Assembly: GCA_015680635.1 (NCBI GenBank) | Contig: JAABOA010000040.1 | Location: forward strand, 1 to 31,625 | Source: Lunasporangiospora selenospora | Taxonomy: Eukaryota; Mortierellomycota; Mortierellomycetes; Mortierellales; Mortierellaceae | Direction: 5' to 3' | DNA length: 31,625 nt | Shown: positions 7,794 to 27,469 of the stretch, piece after piece | Numbering within the stretch: position 1 is the stretch's first letter | Layout of the letters: every line of letters begins with the position of its first letter | Notes under the pieces: generated by a model | The model's database searches: none | The model's input: only the letters and a program-made list of their open reading frames with translations | What the model was told of the DNA's origin: nothing | Translations under genes and position numbers: made by a program

Positions 7794-8108
7794 GAGAAGC
7801 AAGAATATGGAAACTTTTTTTTTGTAATTTTAGTAGCACCTGCCCTTGTAGAATACATTGCTTGCCAGAAGAAGAAAATTGCATTTTCGGCTGCTCTGTC
7901 GCGCTGCGAACAGCGAACGCACCATCTAAACAGCATCCCAAATGTTCCTGAGTACGACTGAATGAACGGTTATCCACTTGCTCCGGACTCTGGACTCGTA
8001 GACGACGCGTCGGAGCCCTAGCTTAAGGGGTTTAAAATCTCTCTCGTGGACATTAATGCCTTCAGGGCTGGAGCTCGAGCGAGAAACCGCTTCTTTCCCA
8101 ATTGCGAC
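7794..8108. other. Intergenic region between CtIP/Sae2 homologue and focadhesin-like gene
   Basis: 315 bp without a gene. No clear AATAAA is visible for the upstream gene. Near the right end lies CGACGCGTCG (8003-8012), a 10-bp palindrome with an ACGCGT core. An ATG at 8056, out of frame with the focadhesin start at 8109, opens a 78-codon frame that overlaps that gene; if it is in the transcript it would act as an upstream ORF. Confidence 0.5.
8003..8012. promoter_or_regulatory. ACGCGT palindrome upstream of focadhesin-like gene
   Basis: CGACGCGTCG, a perfect 10-bp palindrome with the MCB core, about 97 bp before the start codon. It is weaker evidence than the 14-bp site at 4342 because this gene has no known S-phase role. 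Confidence 0.25.
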
Positions 8109-11100
8109 ATGGCCGCTTCATCTCGGAGACCTGCTCTGGGGTCCACAAAGGAAGATTCCATGGACAAATTATTTTCCTCGTCTGGAAAGGGCAACACTCC
8201 CTCCACCACTAACTCAACAACTTCTCATCATCGATCGGTCACTGTCCAGAAGATCGCCACATTACGTGGTCAATTGGCCAATGCACCCTTGAATGCCACC
8301 AACAACAACAGGAGCCTTGTCCTTGCTCAGCTCTGGTCTCTGGCAGTCTCGCCTATCCCATACACCTCTTCAGTTGCAACGACAGCAATTACAGATCTAG
8401 TCGCTACTGGAGCATTGGACTGGACAGAGACTTTGCAAGGATTTGAGAACGCGCTTGGCTCAACGGGATCCAAGGTTGCGCGTCAAGGTTCTCGTCAAGG
8501 TCAAGGTCAAGGTCAAGGTCAATCGCAGGCCAATATGATCCAAGCTCTGAGCAGTCTTTTTATCGCCGCAGCAGAGTTTCTATCCTCTAACTCAACGACT
8601 ACGGCAAAAACATCTACCGGTGCAGGACGTCATCCTAGTCAAGGCTCAATTAGCAGGAGCGCTTTTGCATCCAAAAACAACCGGCATCCATTTGTGGCTC
8701 TCATCTCGACACATCCAGGTGTAGAGATTTCACTCTTTGGTGCAATGGACAGGATTATTAGTTATTCTTCATCCAAATCTGCCTCGCTTTCTGGATACCA
8801 AATCCAAGCGTTTGATTTGGTGGCACCCTTTCTCGACTTTTGCTTGCTGGATCGACACCAAAGGACAACCATTGTATCCAGCACAGCAATGCTTTGGATA
8901 TTAAAGGTGCTCAATGGCCTTCTCGCATCGAACCTCGGAAGTACCCAAGACGGAAGCTCCTTATTTACTATCCGTCTCTTTGACTACCTCTGTTCAATCC
9001 CGGCTCGATTTCCTTTGGACCGCGAGTCGACGAGCACGGCGCTTCAGGCAGGAATGCAATCCCTGGTCGATTATTACCGACTTCCATCGACCCAGCTTTC
9101 TCTAGACTCAAACTATAAAAGTCTACTCGGCGGACGAATTCTATTCCTTCTGGTCTCTTGGATTGCCGACATGAGACGACTAGGGCTTTCGACAGTCTTT
9201 TGGATGCAGATGGCCGAGACTCTTGTTACTCCAAAGAAGGACTATACAGTTCCCGCACTCAGCTTTGATAGACTTTGGCCACTTTTGTCGTATCTGTTGA
9301 TGAACGCCTCGACTGTCGACGAACAACGAATTCTTGTGGACTGGATGCATTCTGCTCTTATCAAGGTCTTGAGTGAGACGGATGAGGCAGCAGGTACCTT
9401 GGATGCCATGATTGCCAACTTGGCCTTTTTGCCGATATTCCAAGTCATGGGTGAATCGCAAATGGAGTCAGTCAGCAAGAAATGCTCCGAGATGCTTCAA
9501 CGACTAGAGACGATCCCCAAAACAAAGCATAGCCATGCTGTCCAGCAAAAAGAAGTGTCTACTAAGGATAAGCTACTCAGGTGTTCGGGTGTCGCCGGTA
9601 TGATTCATGCCGAGGTGAATCATCTTCGACGAATCTGGACCGACGAAAGCTTGGCTACGGGTAGTTTGAGTAGCGACGATGGTGATAGCGAAGAAAAGGG
9701 GCCCTTGTTTTCGTTTGCGGACGATCGAGTACTCTCAAGCCTTGTATTGACCACGATGATGTTCCACCCGGATGAACAGTACCGCATTCGTGCTCTAACC
9801 GAACAGTCTCAAGCAGAAGATGGTCAGCTGGTGACTTTGGTTCTGTTTCTTTATGTACTCCGAGTGGATGCCTCTCCAATGGTGAAACTTCATCTCTTGC
9901 AAGAGTCTATCCCAGCGTTGGTAACAGACAGGGATGAGGTGGTGACCGCCAGAGTACTGAAGATCATCCTGACACTGATCAATGGAAGCCCCCACACCAA
10001 CACGAGCAGAGGATCCAAATCGAGCACTTTTATGGGAGCTGTTGGTGTAAGGATCCTGTTCATGATCTGGAAGCGCCAACCTCGTGTGTGGAAGACGCTT
10101 CGTCATGTTATCCACGAGTGGGTCGAGATGAGGCCTAGACTGCTCAAGACACCTGTGAGGGGAGAACCAGAGTATGATATGGAAGTTGCCGTCTTGACGA
10201 CTATTAGGTAAGAACTTACTAATCATCGATATGTTTACTATGATCTATCTTTAAACCAGATTTACTGATTTTTTATATCTATTCTTCATTGATATGTAGG
10301 GATGTGTGCGCCTTTGATGCTGCCGGGTATGCAGATATTTTAATTCCGTTCCTTTCGAGCTTACTTCATTCTGTGGAGCTCTATGCTTCATCTATCTGCA
10401 TTATAATTGAGACGATTAATATCGCCGTGGATGCCGGCATCGTTGAACCTAGAGCAGGTGAGCTACCAGCTAAATCCAAGCCGACTTTTGAGTCTCTGAT
10501 ATATGGCAAGATTAATATTAATAGTTTCTTTTTGTCTATCACCATTAGCTTGGAATGTTCTTCTCTGCCATATTGCAGAGCATGCAGTCACGACAGAGCA
10601 CAGCCGGATGCTTCAAGAAATGTGTGTCTTTTATGGAATAGTAGGATCCAGCACAGAAGGTCAGTCCTTTTACTTGAATAGTTATTCTGTCTCTCTTTCA
10701 CTACTGGTATCCACACAACATTTTGACACTCGCGAGATTTTTGCTTTGGACTATATAATAGATACTCAGGTTTTCTTGGATTTGAAAGAAGTCATCTCGA
10801 ATGAGTATATCAAGCCGCTCTTGGATTCGAAAGACCCCGAGGTTCTGGCATCGGCTCTCCGAGCACTTGCTTGCTTTACAGCACCAGAAATCTTGACTAC
10901 ACTTGCAGTGGAAGTCCCGGGGGTTTATATTCGAGAGCGGATCTTGGAGGCAACGGATTCACAAGTCGTGGATGAATATTCGTTGGTATTGGAGAAACTG
11001 GTTAGACATGAACTGACTCATATGAGGAGAGGTCTCTTCAAGGACTCTGCCTCTTCAAGGAGAGGCGCAGATGGTGATCAGCAGCAACCAGGAACTCAAG

Positions 11101-17809: not shown

Positions 17810-20800
17810 ATGCAGACCTGGCCTGCGAGACTAAACAGGACACAGCTCCTTTTTTGGGCCATCTCGGCCACGCTTGTCGTCCTGGCTGGCCTCCGCCAGA
17901 TCCTCGGTAAGCTTGATCCTGACCGCCCCATCCATTCTATGTGCCTGTGCACCCACTCGAACCACAAACTCTGACCCTTTAGACTCTTTTGCTCTTCTCT
18001 TTACTACACATGTAGACCCGGCAGATAGGACTCGCTGCAGGAGTCTACTCAATGAAGGAACCTGGGTCGATAGGCAAAATCAACAGTGGTACCCTACTGG
18101 GTGTATGCTCAAGACCTATACTTCACCCAGCATACAATCCTGCCTGAAAGGGTCAAGGGTCGTTATGATCGGAGACTCAGTCGTTCGCCAGCTTTACAAT
18201 GCGACTGTACAAAAAGCCCTGCCTGGGATCAAAGTGGAAGGCGACCGGCACTCAGATATCTATGTCCACGACCCTTTATCTGGCATGGAATTTGAGTTTT
18301 ACTGGGACCCTGTCCTGAACTCAACTAAAGCGAAGGACCTAATCTGGCCTGAAGAGTCTGCAAATCGAATCGTGGATAGACAGTCGAACAAGCAAACACC
18401 TACGATCTTTCTTGTGGGGATTGGAATCTGGCATATACGCTATCCAGAGTGGTCGGGAGGTCGGGACCGATGGCACCAGCTAGTACAACAATTAGTAAAG
18501 CGGATGGACGACCCGAATGCAACCTCCCTAGGGCACAATATCTTCCTGTCACCAATTTCAGCTGTTAACCCAGAGAAGCTCTCCCCTGAACGCCAAAAGA
18601 TGCTCTTGCCGGAAGAAATTGACACAATGAACCAGATTCTTTTCCAAGAGACTCTGGAGACCACCATCACAGTGCCATTTGTGTGGAGTCAAATGAGCGG
18701 GACCGCAAACAATGCCACAAACGACGGATTGCATTTCTCGCTCCCCGTCATGTCGGTCAAGGCAGACATTATGCTCAACTTTGTTTGCAATAACAAACTT
18801 CCAAAGGTCGCCCCTATGACAGCAACATGTTGCTACGATTACCCGTCCAACCAATGGTTCCAAACGCTGATGCTGGCCTTCTTCTTAGTTTGGCTTCCAA
18901 CTGGATACATTGTTCAAACCTGTACGTCTTTGTCGAGTGCTTAAATGCTAAATAATTCAAGCTCTGAAACTCGAGTCACTTGCAATCTGCTGCATACAAA
19001 AATTGAGTTATGCTAACCTCTTTTCTCTATACTCTTTTTGTTCAATGCAGATTTCCGGCAGAGTGCTCTTGCTGGCATCTTCCCTAGTATTGCGGTCCTG
19101 CGGGCACTCTCGATCGTTTCGGCAGCAGTAGTGTTCATGTACTTTTCAGATCGGACAACTGTCTTTGCAAAGGGTAACAAGATCAACGCCCTCGCCACGT
19201 TCTTTGTGTATTCGATATTGGCTGCAGGCTGTTTCACATTGAAAGTATCAGAAAAAGACCAACCTTTTCTGAACCGCGATCAGACAGACGAATGGAAGGG
19301 ATGGATGCAACTTATCATCCTCGCCTATCACTACGTCGGTGCCTCGAGCATCTCATGGATTTACAACCCTGTTCGAATGCTTGTCGCCAGCTACCTCTTC
19401 ATGACCGGATTTGGACATTTTGTATTCTACTACAAGAAAGCTGACTTTGGAGTCGTCCGTGTCGCCTCTATTCTCGTCAGACTCAACCTACTTACGGTTT
19501 TCTTGGCATACACGATGGATACTACATACTTGTCATACTACTTTGCTCCGCTCGTCTCCTTCTTTTACCTCGTCATCTACGGAATGATGTATATTGGGCA
19601 CAAACATAACCATGTCCCGGTATTCATAGTCTCCAAGATCATCATCACAGCCATTCTCACAGCCGTTTTCGTCCACGTCCCAGTGTTCCTCGATACCATC
19701 TTTGCCATCATTCACTTCTTTTATGGCGTAACCTGGTCTGCAGCGGAATGGCGCTTCCGATTGAATCTGGACGTATGGATTGTTTTTGTAGGCTCGCTCG
19801 TAGCATATCTCTTTATCAAAGCCCAGGAACTCTCAGTCACGACACACCCCCGTTGGAACATCATTGCCAACACTGCAACGGCTCTATCCCTTGTCAGCCT
19901 GCTCTTTTACTTTGCATATACCTCGATGACAAACAAATTTGAGTATAATCGCCACCATCCGTTCATCTCCTGGATCCCGATCGTATCGTTTGTCATCCTC
20001 CGCAACTCGACGCAATACCTTCGAAACACAACTTCGACCTTCTTTGCGTTCATTGGAAAATGCTCACTGGAGACTTTCATCGGCCAGTTCCACATGTGGC
20101 TCGCAGGAGACACGAAAGGAATCCTGATTCTCGCGCCCGCGTCTTCAAACTCTGTTTTAATCATCCTAAACACTGTTGTGACCACCTTCATTTTTATCAT
20201 GGTTGCAAATGCGGTTGCAGGCGCGACAGGCGAACTGTCGGACTGGCTGGTCACTGGGAGAGAACCCTCAACAAAGAATACCCCCGCATTGCCTCACAAC
20301 CGTCCACGAATTACCCCATCAAGGTCGTATTCCGCCGTCCCCACTATTAACACACCGGAGGGAGGCAAGGAAAGACGGGAGAGGCAAATGTCACTCTCCC
20401 CAGGAGCCAAACGACAGTCAGTCATGCTCTCACCTATTGCCTCTTCGGCTGGTGCTTTCACTCCCTCTACACTCAAGGCCATGATGGATGCAAGCTATGC
20501 AAAAGAGAACAAGTCTCGACTTGGATCACCCTCGCTCACTCCTACACCCTTAGGTCCGTCAGCCTCTTCATCGTCGTCATCATCACCATCACCATCATCA
20601 TCATCATCATTCTCCGGGCCATATTCTCCTTCGGTAACACCCCCAGAGAAACCCTGGGAGATGGTGAACATGACTGATAAGAGCACCAGTGGAGCAGCAT
20701 CCGACAAAGCAAGGGACCAAAAAGGACGCCATGAACAACCCAATTCCGTGGCAGGTTCTAGCAAATTTTCAAAGAAGCACGAAGGTGTCTCGCTTCAGAT

Positions 20801-20999
20801 CGATACCACCCAAGTAGAATCACCTGAGCTGGCATTACCTCAACCAAGCGCAGTGCGAACCGTCTCTGCGCTCTCACCGTCGGAGGTGACATTCAAGAGT
20901 CTCTGGGCGCATCCAGGGTGGAAGGTAGCCATTTTCCTTGGGGTAACTTGGGTCCTAAATTTTGGGTCTAATTGGCCCACCACATCGACTGTTCAATAA
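17810..20999 (+). CDS. CAS1: Cas1/CASD1-family glycan O-acetyltransferase
   Basis: Three exons (17810-17906, 18016-18921, 19051-20999) give 983 aa. The family moves acetyl groups onto sugars in the Golgi: sialic acid in animal CASD1, and capsular glucuronoxylomannan with Cryptococcus Cas1. The N-terminus has one signal-anchor helix (LLFWAISATLVVLAGL). A lumenal SGNH-type domain follows, with VVMIGDSVVRQLYN (Gly85-Asp86-Ser87) and a C-terminal Asp269-x-x-His272 (NDGLHF). From about residue 310 there are ten or more membrane helices typical of the Cas1 acyltransferase domain. Residues about 738-950 form a Ser/Pro-rich, probably cytosolic loop with poly-Ser, before a last helix (KVAIFLGVTWVLNFG). 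The stop codon overlaps AATAAA (20995-21000). In this fungus the substrate is unknown; a wall or secreted glycan is likely. Confidence 0.85.
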
Positions 21000-21170: not shown

Positions 21171-23181
21171 ATGGCCACATCTCCAACTTCAGCGTCCCCA
21201 GTTCTAGTCACTATCCCCAGTTCAACAACAACTGTGGATCTGCCTCTTGCTCAAGCCCAGGAGCCCCAATCAGTAGCCCAGTCGAGTATGGCTGCCACCA
21301 AGGAAGAGCTTGTCGAAGGACTGACAAAGTTGCAGAGGTCTCTCCAGGTCTTACAGCTAGACTGTGATAAACTCATGGATCTGTTGGAAGGCACTACCAG
21401 AAGTAGCAACTCACTATCGCTTGGAGCTCCTTTGGGTACTGTCCAAGAAGAAATGTCCAGATCAACCCAAGCTAAAAACACTGCGAGTACTGGTATCTCG
21501 AAGTCAGATATTGCCCGAAGGCGAACTCCGAGGTTTATTTCTCGCAAGCCATTCTGGGCCATAAAGGTCAGGGGATGTTCTAAACAACTTGTCCTTTGTC
21601 GTTTAGTCCCTCTTTTCCATTTTGTCAGACGCTCTAAAAGAGAAATGAAATCTTGAATATTCCAATAGGTCCTTGAGCCGTCAGGGCTAGTCTCGGTAGA
21701 GTCGCTGGATGACATAGAGATGAGAGACTCCGTTCGAGAACTCTTGAAAGTTGACAAGTATGTCCTTTTGTTATCGTATCCCAAGGAGCCTTGATACTCA
21801 ACAGCTTTCTAACTTTTTGTCCTCATTTTACCACCCTTCTTATCGCCTAGAATTCCCGAAGCGAGCTCTGCCGAAAAGAGTGTACTCAGTCCTCTTTTGT
21901 CTGGTAAGCCAAGCCTTTTCTACCATTTCATAGGAAGTGTTGGGTATATTCGTAAACTCAGCTCTTTGTTGCATTACTATAGGCGATGATGTTGTCATCC
22001 AGGTCAGAGGAACTAGACTCCAGAGCTTTTGCGCCTATCCGATTATAGAGGCGCTTGAGGGGGCAACTGCTGACCTACAAGTGATCGCCATTGTCAATCG
22101 ACTGGACTCCCGCAGTACCAAAAGTTTCTTGAGATCTCTCCAAGAACACGTTGACAAGATGAATTTAAGGGATATCCGCGTTCAGGTTGTGGCAGAGAAC
22201 CAGATCCAGGACCTTGAAGTCTCCGCTTTGGATGTCTCCGCTATGGCCAATGTCTTTGTTTGTACACCAGAAACCATGGCCAAATTCCGAATGACCAACG
22301 TACTGAGGCCTAAGGATATCGCTGTCATGGTTGTCTATGAGGCCGAGTATGTGCTTCGGAACACATCCAATACGCAGATTGTTGCCTCGGCGCTGAGCGG
22401 GTTTGATAACTGTCAGGCGATCCTTGCATGCCATGATGGAACCAAAGAAATCATGCGTGCGTTGGACACGCTTGGACTCAAGGGAAACAGCGCGACCTTT
22501 AGCATGGACTATACTTTTCTCCATGAGAATCTACACTACTACTATGCTGAGGAAGGCGCCCTGGACGAGAATGAGATTTGTCTTACGCATACTATTCTGG
22601 AAAGGGCTGTTGAACTGAGCAAGAAGTACCTGGTGGTTGTGATATGTATGGATACTCAAGAGGTTGACGCCATCATTGGTTATCTCAATAACCGCGCCAA
22701 CATCGTAAGTAACGCGTCCATTGAGTTGGGTCCCCCATCAGTTTATTTCCAAAGTGAACAATTGAACCAATGATGTGTTTCTTTGGATCCTTGAACTAGG
22801 CTACCGTATCCACGTTTGACTCGCAAAAGTTCACTAATGGAATCTTGGTGACGACCAATATTGTCACTGGGATCTTTCAGAACAAGATAGCTGAAGTGAA
22901 GCTGATCCTCAACATCTCTGGAGTGAAGATCTACCCAGAGAAATACTTTAGCATGTAAGAGCGGCAATTTCTTTCTTTATCTCCTTTCATAGAAACCCTC
23001 TCTTGAGCTAATTATTGACAACCCTCCTATGTATAATTGTATGGATGATAGGATGGCGTCATATTTGGATTTTGGGTATCGATGCAGAGTCGTTACCAAG
23101 GTCAGCTCGCCCAAGGCCTTGAATGGAGTTCAATCGTTCGGTGTATCTTTCCAAGAGCTGTTTGCCCCTCTTCCTTTCTGA
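21171..23181 (+). CDS. eIF4A-like DEAD-box pseudohelicase, catalytic motifs lost
   Basis: Six exons (21171-21566, 21669-21757, 21851-21903, 21983-22704, 22800-22954, 23052-23181) give 514 aa. Residues 1-110 are an added Ser/Thr-rich region with a short coiled coil (LVEGLTKLQRSLQVLQLDCD). From about 144 the sequence follows eIF4A end to end, but every functional motif is changed: Q-motif region ASSAEKS (166-172), Walker A position VRGTRLQ instead of SGTGKT (187-193), PTREL to VNRLD, TPGR to TPET, DEAD to YEAE (298-301), SAT to CHD, the domain-2 ARGID position to VTGIF, and HRxGR to SMMAS. The structural text remains (GILVTTNIV, EVKLILNIS, SFGVSFQELF near the C-terminus). It should not bind or hydrolyse ATP normally. 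Six clean exons and the absence of stops argue for a selected protein rather than a fresh pseudogene. A scaffold or eIF4G-binding decoy is conceivable but unproven. The gene starts only 171 bp after CAS1. Confidence 0.7.
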
Positions 23182-23413
23182 GATCGCTGCTTGGAGTTTG
23201 TCCTCATCGGCTCGCCTCTTGCGACCCAAGGAGCATTAACGTCTCCTATTGCGTTGGGTTGGTTTGAAGCTCCCAATTTCTCTTCCCTTTGCTGAGTGAT
23301 GCCTCCCTTTTTTCCAATAAAAAAGCGGTCACTTCTACCCTTTTTCATTTGGTCACCTTTGCATGTCGTTCACTTAACCATTCCTCACATCATCAAAAGA
23401 AGTCTTTGTAATC

Positions 23414-25083
23414 ATGAATAGAAGGCGCATGCAAGTTGGAAGTCAGGCGTACAAGGAGCGTATGCAGACGATGAATGTAGGTCCCATCTCTTGAGAGCGT
23501 ATTCATCGTGCTCATTGAAATGGTTATTGCATTTGGTTTCATTTCTCCTACCAAGTCTTGGCGAAACATTCAGTCTCGCCCAGAGTTGGTCTACTAGAAA
23601 GCCGGATATTTTGGCTCAAAAACAATACACGCCAACAAGCTATCAAAATATCGTTCTTCAACATTGCGCACGCTATAGCTTACATAACCAATAATTGAAT
23701 GACTTTTTGTCATTTCTTTCTGGGGGGGGGAGGCTCTTAGGAATCCTACCAAAGAGTTGGACAGTCAATATCAGACGCTCAAATGCAACAGCTCAAGAAC
23801 CAACTAGAGATCTTTCGAACAAATCTCGAGAATTTTGCACGCATGCACAGGAAAGATATCCAAAAGAATCCAGAGTTTCGAATGCACTTTCAAAAGATGT
23901 GCGGAAATATTGGCGTCGATCCACTTGCCTGTAATCCCCCTCCAACGTTGTTTCAAATGGCCTTCTTTCATTTGGTGGTCGCACCAGTGGACTCTTTTGC
24001 TCTATTCAGTTCATTTTAGCAAGCTGTGTTACTCAGGATCCAACGCTGATATTCTTATACCCTTTATCAACTGTGTGATTAGCAAGCAAGGGCGTTTGGG
24101 GCGAACTACTCGGCATGGGTGACTTTTACTACGAACTTGGAATTCAAATCATTGATGTCTGTCTCTCGACTCGCCCTCTCAACGGTGGACTCATGGAACT
24201 TTCAGAGGTCAAACGAAAAGTGGAACGAATGCGTGGTGTTCGGGAGACAAGCAATAAGAGTCGAGAGGCGAAAAGCAAATGGACCATAAGTTTATCAAAG
24301 GACACTAGCATGGAGATCTCAGAGTAAGGGGGAAAACTTTTTCTCAATATCTTGCTGCATGCTGACAAATCGAACCATTACGTGGAACCCATTGGCTATT
24401 CAGAGGACCTAATGCATGAAATTTATCTTGTTCTCAATGCTGGCTTCTCAGGGATGACTTATTGAGATCAGTTAAGACGCTGGCGCCATTAGGAAGTGGA
24501 TTTCAGATTCTTCAAATTGGCGACAAAAAGATGGTCAGCTCTGTGCCTCGTGAATTAAACAGGGACCAGTCTGTTATCTTGGGCTTGGTTCAGGTACATA
24601 CACTGTTTCCTGCTCTTATTAATGACAGCCCTTTTAAGACACGAACCTTTCAGTCTCTAGTCTTTGCATCGCTCTCTTTTTACTAACTATGCTCTGCCAA
24701 TTACTTCTTTTTTTTTTATCTAAAGAAAACCAATGGACATATCAATATAGATATTGTTGCCAAGATGCTCGGCTGGGAGAGCAGAAGAACAATAACAGCT
24801 TTGGTAAGTTCCAGTCGTATTAAATTGTGAGTACATTCTTATCCTGCGTTGGCATTATTGACTCTTACAAATCCTTGTGTCTCACTCCATTTGCCCCCCC
24901 CCCCCTCCATCCATTTAGGATACATTGCTGGAGGACAGTTTGATGTGGATCGATATGCAGACGGAGCCTCACGAATACTGGGTGCCTGGATTTATTGAGC
25001 GGGAGGTTGAGGGCGACGAGAGCGAGGACAACGACGTATACGCATCAGTCCATACAACTAATACAGCAACCCTGGCAATATAA
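23414..25083 (+). CDS. SNF8: ESCRT-II subunit Snf8/Vps22
   Basis: Six exons (23414-23476, 23765-23930, 24083-24323, 24452-24593, 24726-24803, 24919-25083) give 284 aa; human SNF8 has 258. With Vps25 and Vps36 it forms ESCRT-II, which sorts ubiquitinated cargo at endosomes. Conserved stretches include the basic MNRRR start and AYKERMQ, the helical [47 protein letters not shown], then the two winged-helix domains with [19 protein letters not shown] and [20 protein letters not shown]. The C-terminus is extended by an acidic tail. Intron 1 is long for the window (288 nt) and carries a 9-G run (23722-23730); the last intron carries 12 C (24894-24905) before its acceptor. Confidence 0.9.
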
Positions 25084-25215: not shown

Positions 25216-27469
25216 TCATTCGGAAATGTAGTGGCTCATGGAATGCTTGTTATGAAAACCTTGGTTCCACTTCAAGAGGTAGTTAATATCCTTGATCCAA
25301 TCTTCGCTCGCATGGACTCTATTGACACAAGGCATAGGGAAAGGAGACATGCAAACTTGTAGGAACTCGTTCTTGTCCAGGAAAAACGTCTCTTTACCGT
25401 CCAGTGACACTTCTGCTGGACGTCTGGATGACTCGCCGATCTATAGCAATGAAATGGTTGATATCTTTCAGAATCTACGTTTTCTTTAAAACGATAGTAT
25501 ACATGGCCCCAACGTTCCTGCTTTACCTTCAATTGAATTGTTGCATTTGGTGGCAAGAGCACCGGTCGGAAGGACAGCGATCTTGGACAAATGGGCGTCA
25601 TCAATAGGGATTGAATGGAGGGGTGGACAATAGATCCGCCAGCAGATAAGGAGTAGGCTGTAGACCCTGTAGGCGAGGCAACAATAAGTCCATCGGCGAC
25701 AGCTTCTGTAATCAAATGGCCGTCGACATAGCACCCAATGGATGTCAAGTGTGGATACCGTCCACGATGCAGGTTTACTTCATTCATGACAGTGAGGTCA
25801 TTGATCCTGCCTGAACCATCCTTGGCCTGAAGTCGGCGTCCATCCGCTCCGTGCAAGGTGCACTTCAGCCGCATGCGTAGTAGGAGCGAGGCGTTGCAGC
25901 TGTCGAAAATCTTTTGAAGTGCTGCCTGATAATTATCGATATCTATTGTTTTATGGGCAAGAGTACAGAGCGGCATGAGCATCTTGATAGATAGGACAAA
26001 TGTTGCTGGAATAGTAAAGGACTTACGGTACGGAAGTAGGAAACCCAGAGTGCCCAACGAGAAAGAGATTACTGGAGGAACAGCTGATTTAAAGAGTGAA
26101 GAGGTGTGAAGAATCGTGCCGTCACCTCCAAGGGTGACCACTAGATCTGTCACTCGAGTGTACTCCTCGACTATTTTTCCATCTAGAGATTTTGTCCGCA
26201 TACGAGAGTAATAGCAACAGTGGTTAGAACTACTAATCGGTCATCATCCGTATTGAAGTTGTGGAGGCATAGAGGGAGGAGAAGTGCAAATACCTGGAAT
26301 AACGTAGACGAATGGAAGTTCCTCGGTGAATTGCTCAGCAACGTCTGGTTCGACTACAACGTTGGCATGCTTGTAGTTCTTGTGGATCCAACTATGTTCC
26401 TTGATCGAAAGAGAACAGTCCTCACAGTTTTGTCAGATACGACTATGCTCGTTTCAGCAAATGGAATGACCATAGATTATAGTAACAGCCTCTTTTTTTC
26501 ATTGGCAGTGAAACCCACGTCGCAACATCGATAAGTGCCCTGTCTGTCTTTTCGTCGCATGGCTTCTTGATGATGAGCACCGTCCTGGGACCTTCATCCC
26601 ACTGCAATTTGTAGTTTCCACTGTGGACATAAGTATTTAAATAAAGAAAAGAAAGATGAGGACAGGGTTAACTGGTAGTAGGTAGAAGAAGACAATGGAA
26701 CCATGAATCGATCCACATCCACTGTGTTGGTTACCCATATGTAGTTCCGAATGATTGTCGGATTTCTCTGCTCGCTTCCTGCTCAGTATTGAATCCAAGA
26801 TCCTTTGGGAAGATGCCTATTTTTGCACAGAGGCGATGGTGAGGTCAACTAGTGCAAGAAATACGACATTTGGATCTGCAGTGAATTTTACCGAGTGTGG
26901 CTCAACCTACCTGGAGTGTCGAGAATCATCTTGGTTCTAGTTGGGAGCTCACTAGTAAGTCGAAGCTTACCGCCACGTCCACCGCCTCGACCAATGCCGG
27001 CAGAAAAAGTCTGTGATCCGCTGTCATTCAAGGTGATCTCAGACTCTTGGTCCCCAGAACTGGGATTATGTTTGTCAGTATTATTCAGGGCATGCTGGAC
27101 AGAATCGTCATGACTTGGCAAGTCGCCTGAGCCTGAGGAATATCTCCGAGTGCTGGAGATGCCATGCCCTGAGTATTGAAATGTCCTGAGAGTAGGGGAG
27201 AGAGTAGATGGAATTGCCCGAGGATATCGCTGCCACAAACCCTTCCTGAGCTGATCGGCTTGATCCGAACAATGATCCCGGAATAGGCCGGAAGGGTGCG
27301 AAGTGAACAACCTTGTCTGGTTGGAGGTCAACCTTGTCTGACGGGAAGCTCTTGCAAGCACTGAGAGTATTGCCTTCCTTGGAGTAGTAGCAGTAACAAC
27401 GCGACTTGATGCGAGAAGTTGCCTAGATTCCAAAAGCACATGGAGAGGTGTCGGCCGAAAGAGCGCCAT
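25216..27469 (-). CDS. POS5: Pos5-like NAD(H) kinase, probably mitochondrial
   Basis: Seven exons on the minus strand (27469-26911, 26816-26735, 26620-26519, 26391-26294, 26182-26027, 25942-25527, 25440-25216) give 545 aa. NAD kinase phosphorylates NAD(H) to NADP(H). Visible motifs are TVLIIKK at the start of the domain, LGGDGT (298-303) for nucleotide binding, VMNEV, SPTGSTAYSLSAGG, and MTPICPRSLSFRPVLLP near the C-terminus. The first about 60 residues are rich in Arg, Ser, Leu and Ala with almost no acids (MALFRPTPLHVLLESRQLL), which looks like a mitochondrial presequence, as in yeast Pos5. A Gly-rich patch (GIGRGGGRGG) lies before the domain. Intron 5 (25943-26026, 84 nt) is frame-neutral and stop-free, so retained forms would insert 28 residues after LLPY. 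Donor 3 is a weak GTGGGT. A cytosolic Utr1-type role is possible, but the N-terminus favours mitochondria. Confidence 0.88.

Follow-up and report, generated by a model that had tools for sequence, protein, structure and literature searches.

The window analysed here, a stretch of 31,625 nucleotides (nt) of contig JAABOA010000040.1 from the soil mould Lunasporangiospora selenospora, contains at 21171..23181 of the + strand a six-exon gene encoding a protein of 514 amino acids (aa). The initial annotation of the window called its product a pseudohelicase, and this identity is very probably correct for the whole family to which the protein belongs: a DEAD-box fold is predicted, a profile links the family to eIF4A, and the motifs are altered in all members. 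Because the defining motifs of DEAD-box helicases were tested and are absent, the protein is described here not as a DEAD-box helicase but as a DEAD-box-derived pseudohelicase. On its sequences and models, the family combines a predicted helicase fold with lost catalytic motifs, the combination that marks a pseudohelicase in the report on Utp25 (PMC9539457).

The six exons (21171..21566, 21669..21757, 21851..21903, 21983..22704, 22800..22954 and 23052..23181) join to 1545 nt in an intact frame, ending with a stop codon at 23179-23181, and all five introns are bounded by GT..AG. The in-frame codon bias of exons 1-5 matches that of other long frames in the window, whereas that of the introns does not. 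Codon bias alone decides neither way for exon 6, which is fixed by its relatives because they share the sequence M(M/L)ASY(L/M)(D/E) and a near-identical C-terminal end: all eight database rows that reach the exon (P0002, P0004-P0009 and P0011) carry this sequence and stop within a few residues of the proposed C-terminus. The six-exon, 514-aa product of the initial annotation is thereby upheld. The public model of the gene, P0001 (protein BGW38_006281), covers 98% of the spliced window protein at 97% identity, is missing exon 6 sequence at both its ends and reads on into the downstream SNF8/Vps22 (EAP30, E 6.1e-31). BGW38_006281 (21171-25083) is thus a chimera of the pseudohelicase and SNF8/Vps22 that also leaves out the N-terminal exons of SNF8, whose own start is apparently at 23414. 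An AATAAA sequence, a likely polyadenylation signal, lies between the two genes at 23316..23321 (+). On these sequence features the six-exon model is better than the public one, given the conservation of exon 6, the run-on of P0001 into SNF8, the separate SNF8 start and the AATAAA between the genes. No second copy of the gene was seen in the 8.2 Mb L. selenospora assembly with exon 4 as query (E<=10).

Protein searches with earlier queries returned three proteins, and residues 186-346 of P0003 as query returned ten. The homologue search reaches only proteins that have short words in common with the query, and the range of the family given here is a minimum. Members P0001-P0011 come from L. selenospora, Modicella reniformis, Mortierella sp. 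NVP85, Dissophora ornata (P0006 and P0007), Mortierella sp. AD094, M. polycephala, Lobosporangium transversale and D. globulifera, together with the contigs P0002 and P0004; the eight named species and these two further sources account for ten distinct genes. P0006 and P0007 are two public models of one D. ornata gene that differ about the first intron site of the window gene. All named matches lie within the Mortierellaceae (the family was looked up for five of these eight species; the others are placed by genus), which supports the lineage-specific origin initially suggested; by these searches the family is so far known from the Mortierellaceae only. The orthologues in sister species that a functional gene was expected to have thus exist (P0002-P0011). 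P0002, P0003, P0010 and P0011 appear truncated, and P0004-P0009, as protein models or frames, have lengths of 443-547 aa. P0004 is a single 547-aa frame running uninterrupted through all five intron sites, and plausibly represents a spliced transcript, since it is around these intron points that the other models break off or start. The core of the window protein is 36-43% identical to those of nine others. The two Dissophora proteins group in the tree with a support of 88, consistent with orthologues, which would pair in this way.

The motifs were compared over ten rows, using window residue numbers and omitting P0006 as a near-duplicate of P0007. Exon 2 encodes the pre-Q region, in which VESLDDIEM may be compared with VDSFDDMNL of eIF4A. 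In exon 3, the glutamine of the Q motif is replaced by Glu170 (21873-21875) in all nine rows that reach the position. Exon 4 encodes RecA-like domain 1 and the beginning of domain 2. At its Walker A position (VRGTRL, aa 187-192, 22003..22020), VRGT--RL stands where AQSGTGKT is usual, with no GKT; the loop is two residues shorter in the window protein and two to three shorter in all ten rows, and the place of the lysine is taken by K in six, R in three and M in one. Motif Ia (VNRLDS, aa 217-222, 22093..22110) has xNRLDA in place of PTRELA in seven of the ten rows, D221 being E or N in two, while motif Ib (TPET, aa 274-277, 22264..22275) has TPEM in place of TPGR in seven. The position of motif II (aa 297-305, 22333..22359) reads VYEAEYVLR rather than xDEADxxL and, as the family's best-conserved segment, is invariant in 11/11 rows, VYEAE being present in all ten of the rows compared here. 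At motif III (aa 329-331, 22429..22437), SAT is replaced by CHD in six rows and otherwise by CRD, AHD or VHD: C329 is A or V in three of the ten, H330 is kept in nine (R in one) and D331 is invariant.

In domain 2, the assignment of motifs follows alignment order and the predicted fold, with no significant profile match. The motif IV position reads VICMD (aa 399-403, 22639..22653), with C401 and D403 in 9/9 rows and residue 402 being H in six of nine, M in the window protein and R in two. Exon 5 encodes domain 2 and includes the motif V position (TTNIVTGIFQ, 22851-22880), which varies within the family: the first D is lost in 9/9 rows, the R keeps its register in two of them (P0004 and P0005), and P0011 retains the last D. 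Motif VI spans the end of exon 5 and the start of exon 6, the latter encoding the C-terminal part. Here SMMASYLD (aa 471-478) replaces HRIGRxGR, and all eight covering rows have (E/Q/S)M(M/L)ASY(M/L)(D/E) for HRIGRTGR, with no arginine. Walker A, G.GK[ST] and HR.GR strings are found neither in the window protein nor in any of the 11 database proteins, and where DE.[DH], SAT-like or PTRE strings turn up, as they do in a few of these proteins, they lie off the motif positions. The initial readings at Walker A, DEAD and SAT, and the loss of the motif VI arginines, are thus reproduced. The broader claim that all helicase motifs are replaced holds for the motifs, every one of which is altered, but not for every residue: of the 35 domain-1 motif columns scored, 26 now have a different commonest residue, while nine retain the one usual in DEAD-box proteins (V, E and A in VxDEAD; T and P in TPGR; R and A in PTRELA; K in GKT; I before Q). 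Three further Walker A columns, gaps in most rows, were left unscored.

The remaining exon, exon 1 (aa 1-132), encodes a low-complexity tail, a long helix and an Arg-rich linker. The coiled-coil-like helix (aa 38-76, 21282..21398) is predicted with low confidence (block predicted local distance difference test score, pLDDT, 34-67) and has a counterpart in helix 55-88 of P0008. The Arg/Lys-rich linker (aa 116-132, RRRTPRFISRKPFWAIK, 21516..21566) belongs to a basic stretch before the core, with 7-13 R+K per 46 residues in all six rows counted (the window protein, P0003, P0004, P0007, P0008 and P0009). With this predicted helix and linker, the new N-terminal extension of the initial annotation is supported.

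Single sequences give little sign of a helicase origin. The window protein alone matches no Pfam family at E<=10, and the DEAD family appears in only 2/11 members, with a best E of 0.014; for P0003 the match falls short of the curated cut-off. A single-sequence search of the PDB lists eIF4A first, without significance (E 0.26-1.2), and also two unrelated chains. Family profiles are more informative. With three rows, 17 PDB sequences are found at E<=10, all of them eIF4A, CshA, SUB2 or RNA helicase, with eIF4A-I best at 0.006. With eleven rows there are 23 matches at E<=1: the twelve best are eIF4A-I/II (5.9e-4 to 1.3e-3; 20.6-21.6 bits), followed by five SUB2/RNA helicase chains from 0.0038 (SUB2 up to 19 bits) and six weak, unrelated rows (ribosomal, tropomyosin). 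Across domain 1, hhalign also aligns the eleven-row profile with five DEAD proteins encoded in the same genome (E 4.7e-5, probability 68%), and the domain-1 profile comparison reaches 34.1, whereas the highest of 40 column-shuffled controls reaches 11.1. Seven of ten members outrank all 500 shuffled sequences under a hidden Markov model (HMM) of six DEAD proteins, the other three falling among the shuffles. The helicase similarity that profile search was expected to reveal therefore appears for domain 1, where both the profile and the predicted fold indicate a RecA-like domain. The predicted structures have a DEAD-box fold. They include a domain 2, with block pLDDT of 68-87 for P0008 residues 381-490 and 48-62 further on, and structure alignments span it, although profile comparison does not support it.

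As to the parent, a domain-1 tree with six DEAD proteins places the family beside eIF4A-III with a support of 64 and a very long branch. We lean slightly towards eIF4A over any other DEAD-box protein as the source. The eIF4A call of the initial annotation stands as the best profile match, but only as the best of close candidates on sequence profiles, with SUB2 next. The 8.2 Mb L. selenospora assembly contains eIF4A-III (L001); no clear exon of a canonical eIF4A was found in it with PF00270 and eIF4A-III queries, though not every DEAD match was identified and the assembly is perhaps incomplete.

Had the active site simply escaped selection, its columns would be expected to rank near the bottom in conservation. 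With redundancy removed, the five most conserved 9-residue windows fall on motifs II (VYEAEYVLR), VI, III, Ia and Ib, followed by the linker stretch FSMDYTFLH, by GDDVVIQVR, which leads up to motif I, and by motif IV. Domain-1 motif columns are more conserved than the rest, the observed difference being reached by 1/165 circular shifts and by 3/10000 permutations stratified by predicted secondary structure; for the replaced columns only, 4/153 circular shifts reach it. The family evolves fast, yet its rewritten domain-1 motifs are kept more strictly than the remainder of domain 1. Because the replacement residues are strongly conserved in related moulds, the protein looks, from its sequence and models, like a dead motor with a new evolved job, and it is almost certainly functional. 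The charge of the face differs as well: domain-1 motif columns carry a net charge of -3 to -6 in ten members, whereas the six DEAD proteins compared lie between -2 and +2, and domain-2 motif columns -2 to -4 in eight covering members versus +2 to +3 in four DEAD proteins. The net charge of the core is -13 to -19 in five full-length rows and -8 in the truncated P0003.

The best overall explanation is probably a DEAD-box-derived, eIF4A/SUB2-like pseudohelicase of two RecA domains that would lack DEAD-box-type ATP binding and act as a scaffold or regulator. It may stem from a DEAD-box gene that was duplicated in the ancestor of these Mortierellaceae or earlier, after which ATPase activity and ATP-driven RNA clamping would have been lost, leaving no ATP cycle. 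The old catalytic face would have become a fixed, mainly acidic putative binding pocket for a protein partner, comprising E170, D181/D182, D221, Y298/E299/E301/Y302, H330/D331, D403 and D478 beside the conserved R188, R219 and R305. Its ligand would most plausibly be a basic or Arg-rich segment, whether of a partner or of the protein's own Arg-rich linker, and the long N-terminal helix may serve dimer formation or anchoring to a complex. Such a protein would act as a scaffold or regulator, a role that has also been proposed for Utp25. We give this pocket-scaffold mechanism about an even chance. It is rather unlikely that the near-invariant consensus for which much of the catalytic face was swapped, motif by motif (IEK, GDDxxLQxR, NRLD, TPEM, VYEAEYVLR, HDG, ICHD, MLASYMD), amounts to a specific ligand-binding or catalytic pocket between the RecA domains; we know of no helicase-fold protein with such a new pocket function.

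Several observations count against this best explanation. The models were built from 10-11 rows with mean pLDDT of 63.7 and 52.6, and AlphaFold2 knows DEAD-box folds well. The conservation tests come from one alignment of ten related rows with kinship uncorrected, and they do not distinguish the Q, GG and V positions. Several conserved positions are filled by Y, A, V or L, so part of the conservation may reflect packing. Acidic residues do not make up the whole face, since R188 (replaced by K in one row), R219 and R305 are conserved too, and the D. ornata linker is less basic than the others (7 R+K, 6 D+E). Two other roles can be imagined for an intact protein. As a competitive mimic of eIF4A, it would keep the surfaces for cofactors of the MIF4G/MA3 type and sequester or tether a cofactor, thereby tuning translation along the lines proposed in the initial annotation. 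The closest profile matches are indeed eIF4A-I/II, and the pre-Q region (VESLDD/VDSFEE) resembles VDSFDD of eIF4A; conservation, however, peaks at the former ATP/RNA face and not at the known MIF4G-binding surfaces, and SUB2 scores almost equally, which makes this role unlikely. A cluster of E299, E301, H330 and D331, with D221 and D403, might alternatively hold a metal or small ligand and perhaps catalyse another reaction. The constancy of YEAE and D331 (10/10), H330 (9/10) and C401 and D403 (9/9) would suit such a site, but C329, H330, D221 and residue 402 vary among rows, and no known active-site pattern was recognised by judgement, no search having been made; we consider it quite improbable.

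That the gene is a decaying pseudogene or dispensable remnant might be suspected from its fast divergence, with core identities as low as 36%, but the long models or frames of P0004-P0009, the stretches that stay invariant despite divergence and the uninterrupted frame of P0004 over all five intron sites, as from a spliced transcript, make this extremely improbable. Similarly remote is convergence, by which an unrelated Rossmann/RecA-like protein would have been pulled to the DEAD-box fold by the predictor. The lack of a Pfam match for the window protein would fit, as would the want of profile support for domain 2, where the profile-profile score of 8.9 is matched by 2/40 shuffles and lies in the wrong register. 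Nor is the reverse search of the family HMM against single DEAD proteins significant, with eIF4A-III first at E 0.27 and a shuffle second. Against convergence stand the colinear domain-1 profile matches to eIF4A/SUB2 and the test of the DEAD HMM with shuffles, and descent from a DEAD-box helicase is the reading we retain.

Elsewhere in the window, two adjoining frames at 17835-20999 (+), one NXPE-like (E 3.8e-8) and one resembling a Cas1-type acyltransferase with ten transmembrane segments (E 1.3e-123), are probably one CAS1-like gene. An NAD kinase is encoded at 25275-26240 (-), convergent with SNF8, and a 729-aa frame at 8022-10211 shows a weak likeness, below cut-off, to focadhesin/RST1 DUF3730.

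Compared with eIF4A (eIF4A-I/II and eIF4A-III/FAL1), the family has in common the domain-1 profile match, the predicted fold, the pre-Q region and the order of motif positions. It differs in that every motif is altered, the P-loop is 2-3 residues shorter, the motif VI arginines are gone, the stretch between motifs IV and V is shorter, and an N-terminal helix and Arg-rich linker have been added. SUB2/UAP56, an active ATPase with intact motifs, is the second-best profile match (E 0.0038), and Foldseek ranks a UAP56 entry first for the P0001 model. Comparison of the eight named species may serve as a natural experiment in the conversion of an ATP-driven RNA clamp into a static module for binding. 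The family also illustrates that proteins of this kind can escape Pfam annotation of single sequences, and the public model of the present gene is wrong.

Few pseudohelicases seem to have been described in open-licence full text. One is PriA of Deinococcus radiodurans, which has lost ATPase and unwinding activities and keeps binding roles (PMC4504706); it is a bacterial DNA helicase of another family and was biochemically tested. The initial annotation knew of no eIF4A paralogue of this kind, and no description of this family was found in the open-licence literature, but a DEAD-box-type pseudohelicase as such has a precedent in Utp25. Identity with Utp25 was considered and is not supported: there is no Utp25_C match in the window protein (E<=10) or in the 11 members (E<=1), 9/11 of which also miss the DEAD model there. 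Utp25_C was not seen in the 8.2 Mb assembly either, which is perhaps incomplete and in which an intron-split search may miss it. Utp25/Def is an essential DEAD-box-like pseudohelicase of the small subunit (SSU) processome common to yeast and human (PMC9539457), whereas the present family, without a Pfam Utp25_C match, is found only in the Mortierellaceae. Utp25 is the closest analogue of the family described here.
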